Of a DNA stretch of 26,186 nt, positions 3,196 to 15,991 are shown piece by piece. The notes beneath the pieces were generated by a model. That model was not told where the DNA came from, did not search any database, and worked only from the letters and a program-made list of their open reading frames with translations. The DNA is from a virus. A program made the position numbers and the translations under genes. Positions within the stretch are counted from its first letter, which is position 1. Every line of letters starts with the position of its first letter. Location of the stretch: positions 1 through 26,186 of the IMG/VR virus record IMGVR_UViG_3300044998_000712. One strand, given 5' to 3'.

Positions 3196-4774
3196 GCTGC
3201 GCGAGTATCAGCGTGCCGCGCTCGATGCGATCGCGTCGGGCTGGCGCGAATTCCGCCGCCAGCTGCTTGTGCTTCCGACGGGCACGGGCAAGACGATTGT
3301 GTTTGCGCATGCGGCAATGAACGAAATTGATCGCGGCGGCAGCGTTCTGGTTCTGGCGCACAGGGATGAATTGATTTTGCAGGCGATTGACAAACTTCGT
3401 GCTGCGTGCGGCATAGATGCGCTTGTGGAGAAGGGTGGATTGCGCGCGCTGGATTCGTTCCGTGCCGGGTCGGTGGTTGTGGCGAGCGTACAGAGTCTTC
3501 ACATTGATCGGCTGATTCGGTGGCCGCGTGATTCGTTCGATTTGATCATCGTTGACGAGGCGCATCATGCGCTGAGCGATTCATATCGGAATATATTCAC
3601 GCATTTTGATGCGGTTGCGGGTGGTGCGACGCGGCTGCTCGGCGTGACCGCGACGCCGGATCGCGGTGATCGCCGTGCGCTCGGCGGCATATTCGAGACA
3701 ATAGCCTACGAATACAGGATGCGCGATGCGATTTCCGCAGGGCATCTTTGCCCGATAGTTGCGTCGAGCATTCCGATAGAGATTGACATGCGCGGTGTGC
3801 GCCGTGTCGGTGGCGATTACGATGCGGAGGCGAGCGCGGCGCGCATTGCGCCGGTGCTTGAGCGTGTCGCTGATGCCGTTGTCGAGTTTGCGCGCGGCCG
3901 GAAGACATTGGTTTTTCTGCCGCTGATCAGCCTGTCGATGGCATTTTCCGATTTGCTCCGCGATCGCGGCATGCATTCGGTTCATGTTGATGGCGAGAGT
4001 CCGGATCGCCGTGACATTCTCGACTGGTTCGCAGGTTCCAGCGATGGCGTGCTGTGCAATGCGTCGCTGCTGCTGGAGGGATACGATTGTCCTGACATAT
4101 CGTGCGTTATCTGCCTGCGTCCGACGCAGATACGCAGTCTGTATCAGCAGATGGTTGGCCGTGGCACGCGCATCGCTCCAGGCAAGAAAAACCTGCTGCT
4201 GATAGATTTTCTCTGGCTGACGGAAAAGCACAGGCTGTGCGTTCCTGCGAGTCTGATTGCGCCGGATGCGCAGCACGCATCTGAGATCATGGATGCGGTT
4301 CGATCGTCGGGCGACGGCGTGGAGGTTGATCTGATCGAGGCGGAGAGTGCGGCGGTGCGCGAGCGGATGCGCAGACTGCGAGACGAGCTGGATCGTCACA
4401 AGCGGAGGCCCGCGCGCCTTGGCTATGATCCGCTCGAATACGGTGCGCGCATGAACGACATCGAGCTGGTGGAGTGGGAGCCGGTGATGCCATGGCATTC
4501 GCTGGCGCCGACGGAGAAGCAGAAAGATGCGCTGACACGGCTTGGTTTCGACGCGAATCGTGTTCGTTTCCGTGGTCAGGCGAGCGCGCTGCTGACGAGC
4601 GCGGCGCGCCGCCGTGAGCTTGGGTTGTGCACGATTCGACAGGCGCGCCTGCTCGAACGTCATGGTCATGCGAATGCGATTAACATGAGTTTTGCGGAGG
4701 CGAGCGCGGCGATAGATGCGATAGCGCGCAGGCTTGGCTGGCGTTCGCATTCGCAGTCCGGAGCCGCGTCATGA
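3182..4774 (+). CDS. SF2 DEAD/DEAH-box helicase
   Basis: The 530-residue helicase shows the ordered SF2 motifs: LREYQ at 6-10, PTGTGKT at 32-38, DEAHH at 125-129, GVTATP at 154-159 and motif VI QMVGRGTR at 323-330. It would use ATP to translocate on or remodel DNA during phage replication or recombination. The C-terminal 200 residues add a basic linker and a small domain starting near PTEKQKDAL, a tail often seen on phage SF2 helicases. The start at 3182 has GAGG (3169-3172) 9 nt upstream; the earlier in-frame ATG at 3173 touches that site and is less likely. It overlaps the initiator gene by 14 nt and the DnaB-like gene by 4 nt. Confidence 0.9.
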   Translation: MGAIELREYQRAALDAIASGWREFRRQLLVLPTGTGKTIVFAHAAMNEIDRGGSVLVLAHRDELILQAIDKLRAACGIDALVEKGGLRALDSFRAGSVVVASVQSLHIDRLIRWPRDSFDLIIVDEAHHALSDSYRNIFTHFDAVAGGATRLLGVTATPDRGDRRALGGIFETIAYEYRMRDAISAGHLCPIVASSIPIEIDMRGVRRVGGDYDAEASAARIAPVLERVADAVVEFARGRKTLVFLPLISLSMAFSDLLRDRGMHSVHVDGESPDRRDILDWFAGSSDGVLCNASLLLEGYDCPDISCVICLRPTQIRSLYQQMVGRGTRIAPGKKNLLLIDFLWLTEKHRLCVPASLIAPDAQHASEIMDAVRSSGDGVEVDLIEAESAAVRERMRRLRDELDRHKRRPARLGYDPLEYGARMNDIELVEWEPVMPWHSLAPTEKQKDALTRLGFDANRVRFRGQASALLTSAARRRELGLCTIRQARLLERHGHANAINMSFAEASAAIDAIARRLGWRSHSQSGAAS

Positions 4775-8206: not shown

Positions 8207-9058
8207 ATGAAATATCTTGGCGCATCTGTGAGCAGCATAGGCAGTGTTGAGCAGTGGTCGAGTTTCCGGTCCATGTTCAACGCGGCCGTCATAATGACAT
8301 TCTGGCGTCAGTTTGATGGTGGTTCCGGTGGGTATCGCGATCAGCCCGTGCGCGAGGTGAACGACTGGATTGTGCGATGCCGTGATTCGGGCATGTACGT
8401 TGCTGGTCATCCTGTCGTCTACAATCTCGCCGCTGCCCAGGGCCCTGACTATGATGCAGCGCAGATGATGCGGCATGTGGAGTGGTACGCTGGAACGTTC
8501 AGCGGTCTGAGCGTGGTGGATGTCGTGAACGAGCACCATCACTATCCGGTTTCGGGATTCGATCAGATGATTGCGCGATGGCGTTCATTGCGTCCTGACT
8601 GCCGCGTGCGATTGAACGAGTATGGATTGAGCATGAACCAGATCGCATTTTCGCGCATCGTGCGCGACGCCTACAGGCCGTGGCTTCACCTTGCCGACGT
8701 AATCGGCATCCAGTGCCATTGGCTGGATCCGCTTGTTGGCGGGAAATTGCCGTCCATCACGACTGTTCAGAGGAATCTTGATGCGCTGGTTGTTCTGGGC
8801 AAGCCGATTCATGTGACCGAGATTTCCATTCCATCGAACCGTGACGGATGGACCGAGTCGAAGCAGGCGGAATGGCTGGATCGCCTGTTGAATCTGTTTC
8901 ACCGCACGCCTGCCGTCGAGGGATGCTGGTACTGGGACCTGAGCGATGCCAACGCATGGAACAGGACATCTGGCCTGTGGCGTGCCGATGGCACGCCCAA
9001 GCCGGCATGGAATGTTCTTGCATCGTGGCGAACTGCTAATCTTCGCGTGAACGTGTAG
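8207..9058 (+). CDS. GH10-like glycoside hydrolase
   Basis: The 283-residue protein aligns in order with glycoside hydrolase family 10. AGHPVVYN at 66-73 corresponds to the GH10 GH-L-x-W strand, and VVNEH at 106-110 places Glu109 as acid/base. RLNEYG lies at 135-140 and IGIQCHW at 166-172. HVTEIS at 202-207 places Glu205 as nucleophile. WYWDLSD precedes Trp251, and GLWRADGTPKPAW is the family's C-terminal signature. No signal peptide or binding module is visible. GH10 enzymes cleave xylan-type beta-1,4 glycans; in a phage the substrate may be cell-wall or capsular glycan. AGGAG at 8196-8200 is 6 nt upstream. The family call is fairly firm, the substrate open. Confidence 0.75.
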   Translation: MKYLGASVSSIGSVEQWSSFRSMFNAAVIMTFWRQFDGGSGGYRDQPVREVNDWIVRCRDSGMYVAGHPVVYNLAAAQGPDYDAAQMMRHVEWYAGTFSGLSVVDVVNEHHHYPVSGFDQMIARWRSLRPDCRVRLNEYGLSMNQIAFSRIVRDAYRPWLHLADVIGIQCHWLDPLVGGKLPSITTVQRNLDALVVLGKPIHVTEISIPSNRDGWTESKQAEWLDRLLNLFHRTPAVEGCWYWDLSDANAWNRTSGLWRADGTPKPAWNVLASWRTANLRVNV

Positions 9059-11987: not shown

Positions 11988-13598
11988 ATGGCAACGAAAC
12001 GGGCGGGGAATGCCAGAAATGCGCCGAAAAAGCGGCGTGATCCGCGGCATCCGGTGTACATTGTCGAGGGTTCGCGCCACACGCGCAGCGGTGAACTGAT
12101 CAACGAGGAAACGGCGATGCAGTACACGCCGTTTCTGCGGGCCTGCGCGGTCATTGCGCAGACGGTTGCGGTTCTTCCGAAGCGCGTGCGTCGTGCCGTG
12201 GATGCGCGCCGTTACGAGGACATTGCGGGGCATCGCGTGGTGTCGCTGCTGAACCGCAGGCCGAATTCGGAGATGACGGCATATCAGTTCTGGGTCGCGG
12301 TGATGCTGTGGGTGCTGCGCTGGGGCAACGCCTATGTCGAGATAGTGCGGAACGTCGGCGGTGAGATAATCGAGCTGTGGCCGATCGAATCGTGGCGCGT
12401 GATGCCGCGTCGCGATCCCGTTGACGGCGATCTCTATTACGAGGTGTGGAACGGTGATGGTGGCGGGAATGCGATGCTGTCGCGCCGCGATGTTCTTCAT
12501 GTTGCGCAGTTGCCGCTCGGTGACGGGATCATCGGCACCGGATTTGTCGGTCTCGGTCGCGAGGCGCTCGCGTATGGTGTTGCGACGGAGCGCATGGGTC
12601 AGGAGTTTTTTGGAAACGGCGGTGCGCCGGGCAGCATCATTTCATATCCGACCGCGATGCCGAAATCCGAGGCGCAGATCGCTGAGATGCGCGCAAAGTT
12701 CATGGAGGCGCATGGCAAGGGCCGCCGCGGCGGCGTGATGTTCCTGTTTGACGGTGCGACCTATTCGGCGTTGAGCGTGCCGAACAATCAGGCGCAGTAT
12801 CAGGAGACACGCGAGTTTCAGGTGCTTGAGGTTTCGCGGTTGACAGGTGTGCCGCCGTACCTGCTGAGCGATTACAAGAACGCGCCGTACAGCACGCCGG
12901 AGCATCAGCGGATTCAATTCCATGATTCGTGTCTGTTGCCGTGGTGCCGCGCCATCGAGAACGAGATCGACATCAAGCTTCTGGATGATGCGGGACCGCT
13001 CTACTGTCAGTTCGATCTGGGCGAACTCATGAAGGGCGACATTCGCAGTCAGGGCGAGTATTATCGCAATCTTGTCATGAGCGGCATTCTCGAACCGAAC
13101 GAGGTTCGCATTCGCCTTGGTGAGAATCCGAGCGAGAACGCGGCGGCGGATCGGCTGTATGCGCCGGTGAATCTTGCGCCGCTGGAGAGCCTTGGCGAGT
13201 TGAGCGCGGAACGCCGCGCAATTCGCGGCGGCATCAGCGATGGCGGTGATCCGTCAACGACGCGCACGCCTGCGGCGCATCTGCTTCCCGCACTGGTTGC
13301 GTCGATCGAGACGATTGCGCGGCGCGAGCGGCGCAGGCTGGACACGCTTGAGCGCAACGGATGCGCGGAGCAGTTCCGTTCATGGCTGGAATCGCAGTCC
13401 GGATACATGCATGACATTCTTGATCCGGTGCTGCACAGCGCGTACATGGCCTGCGGAATGCGCGGCGACATTGCGGCGTTGAAGGCGCACGAGCATGCCG
13501 AGCGCATGATCGCGATGCGGTTGCACAGGAGCGGCGACAGGATTCAAGACGTGATTGATGCGATGCGCACGCTGGAGGAAATAACGAATGAGGCATGA
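11988..13598 (+). CDS. HK97-type portal protein
   Basis: The 536-residue protein matches phage portal family PF04860: ACAVIAQTVAVLP near the N-terminus, VSLLNRRPNSEMTAYQFW, LRWGNAYVEI, the LWPIESWRV block, and SRLTGVPPYLLSD later. Twelve copies form the DNA channel at the head vertex and the docking site for terminase. The first 30 residues are basic. The C-terminal 120 residues (after LAPLESLGELS) form an Arg-rich helical tail, so it is longer than HK97 portal. GGAGG at 11975-11979 lies 8 nt before ATG 11988. The frame stays open upstream into terminase to 11790, but that part is a shadow. It overlaps the protease gene by 11 nt. Confidence 0.92.
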   Translation: MATKRAGNARNAPKKRRDPRHPVYIVEGSRHTRSGELINEETAMQYTPFLRACAVIAQTVAVLPKRVRRAVDARRYEDIAGHRVVSLLNRRPNSEMTAYQFWVAVMLWVLRWGNAYVEIVRNVGGEIIELWPIESWRVMPRRDPVDGDLYYEVWNGDGGGNAMLSRRDVLHVAQLPLGDGIIGTGFVGLGREALAYGVATERMGQEFFGNGGAPGSIISYPTAMPKSEAQIAEMRAKFMEAHGKGRRGGVMFLFDGATYSALSVPNNQAQYQETREFQVLEVSRLTGVPPYLLSDYKNAPYSTPEHQRIQFHDSCLLPWCRAIENEIDIKLLDDAGPLYCQFDLGELMKGDIRSQGEYYRNLVMSGILEPNEVRIRLGENPSENAAADRLYAPVNLAPLESLGELSAERRAIRGGISDGGDPSTTRTPAAHLLPALVASIETIARRERRRLDTLERNGCAEQFRSWLESQSGYMHDILDPVLHSAYMACGMRGDIAALKAHEHAERMIAMRLHRSGDRIQDVIDAMRTLEEITNEA

Positions 13599-14418
13599 AC
13601 TGTGGGCGATTCGCGACGGCTGTGACTGGGTTTTCGACGATCGCGAGATCGCGAAACATTTCGCGGGCGTATCCCGCGCCGCCGCCGATCAGAATTCGGA
13701 GCGATTGGTGTCTGGCGGCGTGGCCGTGATAGATGTTTTCGGCCCGATAGTGCAGTCCGGCGGAATCGGCGAGCGTTATTTCGGCATGGCAAGTTCACGC
13801 GCCATTGCGGCGCGCGTGCGCGAGGCGATGGCGATGCGTGAAGTTGGCGCAATTCTTTTGCGCGTGGATACGCCTGGCGGCATCGTGAATGGATGCGGCG
13901 AGGCGAGTGATGCGATTTATGAGGCGCGCCGATCCGGCATGCCTGTGGTTGCGCACGTCATGGCGCAGGCGTGCAGCCTCGGCTACTGGCTGGCGTCGCA
14001 GGCGTCCGAGGTCTACGCCGAGCGCACGACCATTGTCGGATGCCTCGGCACGATCATGGTTCTGTATGACACGTCGAAGTATTTCGAGAATCAGGGCATC
14101 GTGCCTCGCGTCATTACGCGGGCGCGGTTCAAGGCCGCCGGCGTCGATGGCGTGCCGCTGGATGATGAGATGCTCGAATATCTGCGTCGCCGCATCGATG
14201 AGGGCGATGCGATGTTTCGCGCCGATGTGCAGCGTGGTCGTGCTGGAATTTCGTGGGACGCCGTCGGTAACGGGCAATACTGGTCGGCCAACGACGCGCA
14301 GATTCTCGGGCTGGTGGACGTCGTGCAGGGCCACGATGCGAGCATGGCCCGCGCGATGTCCCTGGCCTCCATGACATTTTCGCGGCGTAACGCGGCCTTG
14401 CGCGCCCGCATGCTTTGA
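13588..14418 (+). CDS. S49/SppA-like prohead protease
   Basis: The 276-residue protein has the S49 peptidase (SppA/ClpP-fold) signatures: LLRVDTPGGIVNG at 90-102, MAQACSLGYWLAS with the likely catalytic Ser130, and ARFKAAG with the likely general base Lys182. In this position, between portal and capsid, it should be the maturation protease that cuts the capsid scaffolding domain. GGAGG at 13574-13578 precedes the ATG by 9 nt, within the end of the portal gene. Size suits a prohead S49 protease. A 193-nt regulatory gap follows. Confidence 0.88.
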   Translation: MRHELWAIRDGCDWVFDDREIAKHFAGVSRAAADQNSERLVSGGVAVIDVFGPIVQSGGIGERYFGMASSRAIAARVREAMAMREVGAILLRVDTPGGIVNGCGEASDAIYEARRSGMPVVAHVMAQACSLGYWLASQASEVYAERTTIVGCLGTIMVLYDTSKYFENQGIVPRVITRARFKAAGVDGVPLDDEMLEYLRRRIDEGDAMFRADVQRGRAGISWDAVGNGQYWSANDAQILGLVDVVQGHDASMARAMSLASMTFSRRNAALRARML

Positions 14419-14451: not shown

Positions 14452-14480
14452 TTGACAATGGGATTCGGATGTGTTTTAAT
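14452..14480 (+). promoter_or_regulatory. Extended -10 sigma70-like promoter upstream of capsid
   Basis: TTGACA (14452-14457), a 17-nt spacer ending in the extended -10 TGT (14472-14474), and TTTAAT (14475-14480, 5/6 to consensus) form a strong promoter. The start would be near 14487. It has the same geometry as the promoter at 573-601: perfect -35, 17-nt spacer, TGN extension. It lies in the only sizeable gap within the structural genes, directly before the capsid gene, which needs high expression. Confidence 0.75.
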
Positions 14481-14486
14481 TTGACT

Positions 14487-14592
14487 TGGATTTGAATCGC
14501 TCTGCGCGCAGAAGGCGCGCCGGGCAGCGCAACCCAGAGTCGGGCGCATGTGCGTGGCAATCCTGTTTGCATCGCATGCGCCCGTTTTTTTT
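14487..14592 (+). ncRNA. Possible short leader RNA ending at an intrinsic terminator
   Basis: Transcription from the promoter at 14452-14480 and ending in the T-run at 14585-14592 would give an RNA of about 106 nt. Its 5' part contains a perfect palindrome TCTGCGCGCAGA (14501-14512) and GGCGCGCC (14514-14521), and it ends in the terminator hairpin. It could be a stable small RNA, or the attenuated leader of the capsid transcript. Endpoints are inferred from promoter and terminator only. Confidence 0.4.
14541..14592 (+). terminator. Intrinsic terminator in the capsid leader
   Basis: CGGGCGCATG (14541-14550) pairs perfectly with CATGCGCCCG (14575-14584), with a weaker inner GCAA/TTGC pairing (14557-14560/14567-14570), and eight T residues follow at 14585-14592. 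This is a textbook rho-independent terminator. It lies after the capsid promoter and only 5 nt before the capsid ribosome binding site, so it would act as an attenuator unless read through. Confidence 0.8.
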
Positions 14593-14611
14593 AACCCAGG
14601 AGAGAACATCA

Positions 14612-15991
14612 ATGACACTTGAAGAACTGACTGCACGGCTGACCGCGATTTCGGAGCGCGGCCGCCAGATTCTCGCGGAGGCAGGAGATGCGCCGTTGAG
14701 CGAGGAAGCGACGGCGGAGATTGATGCGCTGGATGCCGAGAAGTCCGAGATCGAGAGGCAGATTCGCGATCACAATGCGCGCCTTCGTGCGCAGCGTCTT
14801 CAGGATTCCTGCATTCGCGGCGAGGTTGCGGAGAGCGGTGTGCGCCGCATGTCTCCGGTGGCATCGAACCGTCCGCGCATCGAGGTTGGTCGCGAAGGTT
14901 TCGAGCGTGATCCGATGTGCGGCTATCGTTCGCCTGCGGAATTTCTCCGCGAGGTGCGTGCCGTGGCGACGGGTCAGACGACAATCGAGCGTTCGCGTCG
15001 TCTGCTGCCGCTGTTTGGCGGCATCGAGCATGCGGAGAACAGGCTGGAGCTGTACGGGATTTCGAGCAGTGAATTCGCTCGGGAGTCTGTCGGCGGCGAG
15101 GGCGGTTTTCTCGTGCCGCCGCAGATGCGCGAGGAAATTTTCTCCGCGATCAACGGCACGACTTCGCTTTTCAATGTTCTGTACAAGGAGCCGATCAGCA
15201 CGAACGCCGTGGAATGGGACGGCGACGAGACCACGCCGTGGGGCGCGTCCGGCATTCGCCCCTACTGGCTTGGCGAGGGCGGTTCGCTCACGGCGACAAA
15301 GCCGAACGTCGAGAAGCGGATCAATCGCCTGCACAAGGTCGGCGCGCTCGTGAACGTGACCGAGGAATTGAACAGCGACGCGACGCGCCTCAACAACGTG
15401 ATCACGCGACAGGCAGGCGCCGCGCTCGACTACGTCATTTCCGAAGGGTTCTATTCCGGTGACGGCATTGCGAAGCCTGTGGGTTTTTTCGGTCACAGTT
15501 CGCAGGTGACGGTTGCGAAGGAGACCGGTCAGGCCGCTGGCACGATCAACGCAGCCAACGTCACGAAGATGCTTGCGCGGCGTCGCACGTCGAACGATGC
15601 GCAGTGGGTGTGGCTGATGAGCGCGAGCGCGTACTCGCAGATCATCACGCTGACCATCGGGTCGTCTCCGGCGTGGACATCGCCCGCGAGCGGATTGAAG
15701 GATGCGCCCGGCGGCATGCTGCTCGGCATTCCGATTGTGATTTCCGAGCATTGCAGCACGCTTGGGACCGAGGGCGACATCGTGCTTGTGAACGCACGCG
15801 GATACTACGGCATCTATCACAGCACGAGCCTGCGGTTCGATTCAAGCATTCACGTGCATTTCGCGCAGGACATCAGCGCGTTCCGCTGGATCATGCGCGT
15901 TGGCGGAATGCCGTTCCTCCAGAATCCTGTTTCGCCGAAAAACGGATCGCTGACGTACAGCGATTTCATTGCATTGCAGACCCGGTCCTAA
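14612..15991 (+). CDS. HK97-type major capsid protein with delta domain
   Basis: The 459-residue protein has an N-terminal helical, charged scaffold-like (delta) segment covering about residues 1-65 (coiled-coil pattern, ISERGRQILAEAG onward). A linker leads to the conserved entry of the HK97 fold, GGEGGFLVPPQMREEIF from 161. Later blocks (LVNVTEELNSD, ISEGFYSGDG, KPVGFF, AFRWIMRVGGMPF) fit the family. The upstream S49 protease probably removes the N-terminal part. AGGAGAG at 14598-14604 is 7 nt before ATG 14612. The same frame is open back to 14486, but that stretch holds the terminator and is not counted as coding. Confidence 0.93.
   Translation: MTLEELTARLTAISERGRQILAEAGDAPLSEEATAEIDALDAEKSEIERQIRDHNARLRAQRLQDSCIRGEVAESGVRRMSPVASNRPRIEVGREGFERDPMCGYRSPAEFLREVRAVATGQTTIERSRRLLPLFGGIEHAENRLELYGISSSEFARESVGGEGGFLVPPQMREEIFSAINGTTSLFNVLYKEPISTNAVEWDGDETTPWGASGIRPYWLGEGGSLTATKPNVEKRINRLHKVGALVNVTEELNSDATRLNNVITRQAGAALDYVISEGFYSGDGIAKPVGFFGHSSQVTVAKETGQAAGTINAANVTKMLARRRTSNDAQWVWLMSASAYSQIITLTIGSSPAWTSPASGLKDAPGGMLLGIPIVISEHCSTLGTEGDIVLVNARGYYGIYHSTSLRFDSSIHVHFAQDISAFRWIMRVGGMPFLQNPVSPKNGSLTYSDFIALQTRS

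Follow-up and report, generated by a model that had tools for sequence, protein, structure and literature searches.

We propose, at a probability of about one half, that the leader of the major capsid gene in this virus is a conditional terminator (an attenuator or antitermination leader). The window (the whole 26,186-nt stretch of IMG/VR virus DNA analyzed here) carries promoter-like and terminator-like elements in that order ahead of the capsid gene and has no room for a further promoter behind them, and the arrangement recurs, with covarying hairpin arms, in the capsid leaders of its relatives. Judging from this layout, production of the capsid shell probably depends on polymerase passing the terminator.

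Predicted promoter and terminator in the capsid leader

The 26-kb window has the gene order of an HK97-type siphophage (replication genes, SSB, TerL, portal, S49 protease, major capsid protein, head-tail joining, tail genes), and nearly all of its genes are on the + strand. Between the replication genes and the terminase, the gene at 8207-9058 encodes a glycoside hydrolase family 10 domain (E 4e-16), which is unusual for a phage. The protease stop codon and the capsid ATG are separated by 193 bp, within which promoter, hairpin, T8 and Shine-Dalgarno (SD) sequence are all located (Table 1). A second IMG/VR contig carries a letter-for-letter copy of this leader, with zero differences over the common leader, and an assembly artefact in a single record is therefore excluded; being identical, the second contig is uninformative on leader evolution. 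It runs 5.3 kb beyond the window, whose last ~15 bases are an A-rich run, and the 2886-bp overlap at the window end contains one single-base indel. A 501-aa capsid reading from TTG 14486 was rejected in favor of the ATG at 14612, where an SD is present. From the ATG, the capsid frame stays open back to that TTG (14486-14611), across the terminator, probably by chance.

Table 1. Features of the capsid leader and its flanking genes in the window, with an example of the two-hairpin element from a relative.
Feature	Position	Strand	Remarks
S49-type head maturation protease	13588..14418	+	stop codon 14418, 122 nt 5′ of the terminator hairpin
Sigma70-type promoter TTGACA-17-TGtTTTAAT	14452..14480	+	top-scoring site on both strands of the 26-kb window
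First leader hairpin GCTC.TGCGCGC-agaag-GCGCGCC.GGGC	14498..14525	+	energy model only; without comparative support
Candidate alternative hairpin GCGCA.CCC-AGAGUC-GGG..UGUGC	14527..14553	+	−7.6 kcal/mol; weak
Predicted intrinsic terminator	14541..14592	+	12-bp hairpin 14541-14584, T8 14585-14592
Shine-Dalgarno AGGAGAG of the capsid gene	14598..14604	+	5 nt 3′ of the T run
Major capsid protein, HK97 fold (PF05065)	14612..15991	+	ATG 14612
L086-clade two-hairpin element (example)	L082:3876-3929		3′ of the protease stop codon, in the capsid leader

The promoter consists of TTGACA (14452-14457), a 17-nt spacer, TG (14472-14473) and TTTAAT (14475-14480), with an expected transcript start at ~14487. 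The −35 hexamer matches the consensus at 6/6 positions and the −10 hexamer at 5/6, with a TGn extension; at −10 position 2, the most conserved −10 base, T replaces A. Near-consensus hexamers at 17-nt spacing place 14452-14480 in the sigma70-like class, and a sigma70 weight matrix applied to both strands of the window ranked it first (15.3, against 13.8 for the runner-up at 573). An earlier, sequence-only reading of this DNA had described the same promoter ~60 nt 5′ of the hairpin, and its positions were confirmed. A simple consensus scan of the window did not list the site, as its rule requires A at −10 position 2. The runner-up promoter (573-601, TTGACA-17-TATTTT) is located immediately 5′ of the first replication gene, and its start, TTGACAAgTGGG, is similar to the TTGACAaTGGG of the capsid promoter.

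The terminator hairpin comprises 12 bp including one G-U, with a self-pairing loop and a calculated energy of −27.2 kcal/mol. The sequence-only reading had counted 10 bp followed by eight T; the T run is as described, and adding the flanking C-G and a G-U pair brings the stem to 12 bp. In sequence, a G+C-rich hairpin directly 5′ of a T run makes 14541-14592 a predicted intrinsic terminator, and a d'Aubenton-Carafa-type score places it first on both strands of the window (d = 35.9; runner-up 10.6), with scoring that is tuned to E. coli. The simple consensus scan, which allowed loops of <=8, left it unlisted. Promoter and terminator are each the best of their kind in the window and lie ~60 bp apart, giving a predicted transcript of 106 nt (14487-14592). 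The 19 nt between the T run and the ATG are occupied by the SD, located as earlier described, and cannot fit a promoter; every capsid transcript therefore crosses the terminator, in agreement with what had been claimed for capsid expression.

The leader as a whole folds barely better than shuffled sequences (z −1.6), and the signal therefore resides in the hairpin-plus-T arrangement. One main hairpin is predicted 5′ of the terminator. Classical attenuation by rival folds was rejected for the window, as the fold with the terminator (−53.0 kcal/mol) is ahead of that with the terminator forbidden (−26.2 kcal/mol) by ~27 kcal/mol. The 3′ arm of the CCC-AGAGUC-GGG hairpin is the 5′ arm of the terminator; this hairpin has only 3 bp beside the loop, and the energy model presents it as a folding intermediate that precedes transcription of the terminator 3′ arm. 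Its AGAGUC loop is similar to the CCGAGU/AGAGUC loops of related leaders, and the hairpin falls below the criterion that we used for overlapping hairpins.

Predicted terminators in the capsid leaders of relatives

Single-sequence scans with the capsid, terminase and portal proteins recovered nearly no relatives (the capsid scan yielded the identical contig plus a single capsid at 37% identity), so alignments were needed. Two scans of genome contigs for relatives and a DNA-level search of phage records with the leader each returned zero. Using capsid alignments, we assembled four locus collections from IMG/VR, in which capsid starts were predicted by homology and SD.

A terminator is present <=120 nt 5′ of the capsid start in 20 of 72 leaders. 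The same scoring found one at 19 of the 430 other gene starts of these loci and in 10 of 1440 dinucleotide-shuffled controls. Restricting the comparison to gaps of >=60 nt gives 19/62 for capsid and 18/181 for other genes. Eleven of 18 non-capsid terminator gaps are the gap right 3′ of the capsid gene. Strong terminators directly 3′ of the capsid gene are found in L004:~4280-4350, L005:~4395, L324:5654-5671, L040, L077 and L088, with D3 among these phages; the 3′ gap of the window capsid gene is merely 19 nt. After enlargement of the set, a terminator is present in 82 of 204 distinct leaders. When capsids are clustered at 70% identity, 18 of the 86 clusters have one and 68 do not, cluster-level counts being partly non-independent. 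By inspection of the capsid tree, terminator-bearing leaders are spread across distant branches, and relatives have the same architecture in unrelated leader sequence.

To avoid picking hairpins by their pairing, we took the 5 nt preceding the last T run and sought a perfect complement upstream. A complement was found in 13 of 25 clusters, against 2.9 expected by arm swapping (maximum 9 in 2000 swaps). Within the L086 clade the stems vary by member (CCACC/GGTGG, GCCAC/GTGGC, CCGCC/GGCGG, CCCGC/GCGGG), and the T5-7 run and the SD distance stay constant despite the change of stem. Several leaders of this clade (L158, L159, L151, L164, L130, L085) carry a tandem pair of terminators directly 5′ of the capsid SD, an arrangement that would suit stringent termination. 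Some relatives (L058, L208, L199) have a long hairpin 5′ of the capsid without a T run.

Of 98 cluster leaders, 9 contain a promoter scoring >10 bits, an ~8-fold enrichment over randomly chosen positions of these loci (1.2%); the reverse-complemented leaders, as antisense control, gave 0 of 98. Promoter and terminator are found together in several relatives' leaders (L089/L092, L047, L028, L027), and the window is the clearest promoter-plus-terminator leader in the comparison set.

Two further conserved elements were observed in capsid leaders. The hairpin GGGCGCACGCGCCC is conserved in sequence between the terminator and the capsid SD of L224:2738-2790, L234, L248, L314, L068, L056 and L080, and is retained where the T run is gone (L230, L242, L247). 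Leaders of the Bradyrhizobium-phage type have a conserved multi-stem motif, CCCGCGTCGCCGGACAGCGGGAGnGCGGGCTC...GTCCGGC, 5′ of the capsid SD (L053, L004, L059, L061, L066, L074, L081, L084, L088, L090).

Small hairpins with conserved loops

Two copies of C-G-closed hairpins with CRNN loops are found in 10.2% of leaders and 0.2% of controls, and two copies of the related CGAG loops in 4.1% of leaders and 0 controls. Members of the large L086 clade share a pair of small hairpins whose cores, CUC-CGUY-GAG and GACC-CRNN-GGUC, are fixed and whose outer stems covary. As these sequences were selected on their inner pairs, only the outer pairs provide independent evidence; they show 75 double-change cells, against 29.6 for shuffled and 8-25 for slid controls. 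No Rfam family scored above its gathering threshold for the L086 hairpins or the window leader. A covariance model of the L086 hairpins (R1) detects the leaders of L057, L032, L222 and L023, four other clusters outside the clade. R1 did not detect the leader of the window, where its sole hit was a 12-nt match on the opposite strand at 15652, attributable to chance.

A conserved-loop hairpin (CCGAGN or C-CRNN-G) overlaps the terminator 5′ arm in 6 of 24 terminator leaders, against 0.18 expected, a class that was defined after inspection of the same leaders. Any-loop hairpins overlapping the terminator 5′ arm show no excess in relatives' leaders (20 vs 16.2). For both reasons we treat the overlap as a lead only. 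One may tentatively, and with considerable doubt, suppose that in a broad group of HK97-type siphophages the capsid leaders form an undescribed class of attenuators. Their CRNN- and CCGAGU-loop hairpins would be the sites at which some factor of phage or host origin brings about antitermination (a head protein that reports on assembly is one candidate), and would so decide whether polymerase passes the terminator. The window would then be a diverged, promoter-bearing case.

A proposed conditional terminator and its alternatives

Without some form of relief, a strong terminator 5′ of the gene whose product is needed most would be a paradox. In the mechanism we favor, the host-type promoter at 14452-14480 would initiate a short leader RNA, and polymerase arriving from this promoter or from the portal and protease genes would halt at 14585-14592 by default; read-through would lead to transcription of the capsid and downstream tail genes. 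Relief could come from polymerase that becomes termination-resistant late in infection, via a lambda Q/N-like protein or a put-like RNA, or from a bound factor that keeps the terminator 5′ arm in another hairpin. The simplest logic would be that of lambda pR′-tR′, with a constitutive short RNA made until polymerase turns termination-resistant. Termination in vivo, late timing, and the existence and identity of a relieving factor are inferred parts of this model.

The sequence-only reading had suggested antitermination or attenuation control of the head proteins. This suggestion is partly supported. The over-representation of terminators and the covarying arms in relatives speak for it, and the absence of a strong competing antiterminator fold from the leader speaks against it. 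It had also pointed to antiterminator genes as worth seeking. PHROGs and Pfam scans of the window plus a 5-kb extension (31 kb) recognized none of the N, Q or other annotated antitermination families; both records are partial, though, and such scans can readily overlook an antiterminator of small size.

The leading alternative is a boundary model patterned on HK97, without any switch. Transcription would run through the late operon regardless; the hairpin, terminating leakily and delimiting RNA stability, would set transcript ratios around the capsid gene, and the local promoter would act as a booster. We consider this possible and rather doubtful. It fits the putative terminators annotated near the protease, capsid and major tail genes of HK97 (NC_002167), the terminators 3′ of the capsid and of the major tail gene in D3 and Sfi21, the frequency with which relatives' non-capsid terminators directly follow the capsid gene, and the late clusters of SPP1, which are likewise delimited by terminators, with no further late promoter recognized and the required early factor unidentified (PMC6316719). 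A leaky terminator 5′ of the capsid would, however, reduce the most-needed product, and the boundary model leaves tandem terminators and conserved upstream small hairpins unexplained. The leader might instead act as a translational enhancer or 5′ stabilizer in the style of the T7 gene 10 leader, with the hairpin and U-rich stretch protecting the mRNA and recruiting ribosomes and with termination incidental. The contiguity of hairpin, U8 and SD would be expected of such an element, as would the relatives that retain a long pre-capsid hairpin and no T run (L058, L208, L199), but it would require neither a G+C-rich stem flush with a T run nor tandem units, and T runs remain joined to covarying hairpins, which makes this explanation unlikely.

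The sequence-only reading had also raised the 106-nt RNA as a product in itself, for which we obtained no comparative support. A promoter and a terminator would yield a discrete RNA, and this could be a trans-acting small RNA with the capsid gene merely downstream; yet the leader sequence is matched in the one identical contig alone, antisense matches within the window are 12 nt, a chance length, and relatives' terminators lie within unrelated leaders. A conserved trans-acting 106-nt RNA is thus unlikely, and we rate a trans-acting role of the RNA as quite improbable. Least probable of all is that the promoter-like and terminator-like strings arose by chance and have no function. Consensus matches by themselves are weak evidence, the −10 hexamer is without its most conserved A, and the z of the leader is modest, but both elements are the top-scoring ones on either strand, they lie close together, and the same placement repeats across independent lineages.

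The late operons of several phages hold terminators that late transcription must cross. We found no account of terminators or conserved RNA hairpins 5′ of capsid genes in the open-licence literature. The compact leader, with its promoter and terminator and, in relatives, covarying hairpins, offers a reporter-sized test piece for read-through control of head proteins. If relief of the conditional terminator needs a phage protein or the small hairpins, it would represent an added antitermination system, positioned at the capsid gene and not at the start of an early or late operon.

Comparison with known systems

The T7 gene 10 leader resembles the window in having a hairpin and a U-rich stretch 5′ of the capsid SD; it is not a terminator and lacks the conserved coupling of a T run to a G+C stem. 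Some relatives' leaders may resemble the RAT/terminator attenuators (BglG/LicT), in that the 3′ arm of a conserved-loop hairpin is the 5′ arm of the terminator; loop and stem are different, and the window version has 3 bp only. No BglG/LicT-type regulator is known in this phage.

HK022 put, canT and EAR are cis-acting antiterminator RNAs, and put makes polymerase resistant to termination. The put element of HK022 is an RNA of ~70 nt with two stem-loops, located downstream of promoters (PMC9378689; PMC11658703). The L086 clade may resemble put in placing two small hairpins ahead of one or two terminators, whereas its hairpins are smaller, have CRNN loops, are situated beside a late gene and match no Rfam family. 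The window differs from put in being without an L086-type two-hairpin element.

In lambda pR′-tR′, a strong promoter is followed by a short leader, a terminator and the late structural genes, and Q provides antitermination. The window shares this anatomy of promoter, short leader and terminator before late genes. Unlike pR′-tR′, the window module is embedded in the head operon and adjoins the capsid ribosome binding site, with a leader about half as long, and a Q-like gene was not found in the window plus 5-kb extension.

HK97 differs from the window in its protease-capsid gap of 2 nt, and its hairpins are therefore located 5′ of the protease and 3′ of the capsid; the compared stretch of its record has no promoter annotated beside the hairpins. 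Terminators are also annotated on both flanks of the major tail gene (NC_002167), and one of them (L323, 6692-6719; AACCCGCCAGATGGCGGGTTTTCTTTTTCCAGGAG, d = 35.7) adjoins the major-tail SD. The window and HK97 are alike in gene order, in capsid family and in having a hairpin and T run that adjoin a major structural gene's SD, and terminator-like hairpins that abut or flank major structural genes, as in HK97-type late operons, are found in the window as well. Given the precedent at the HK97 major tail gene, the window arrangement is a variation on a known theme.
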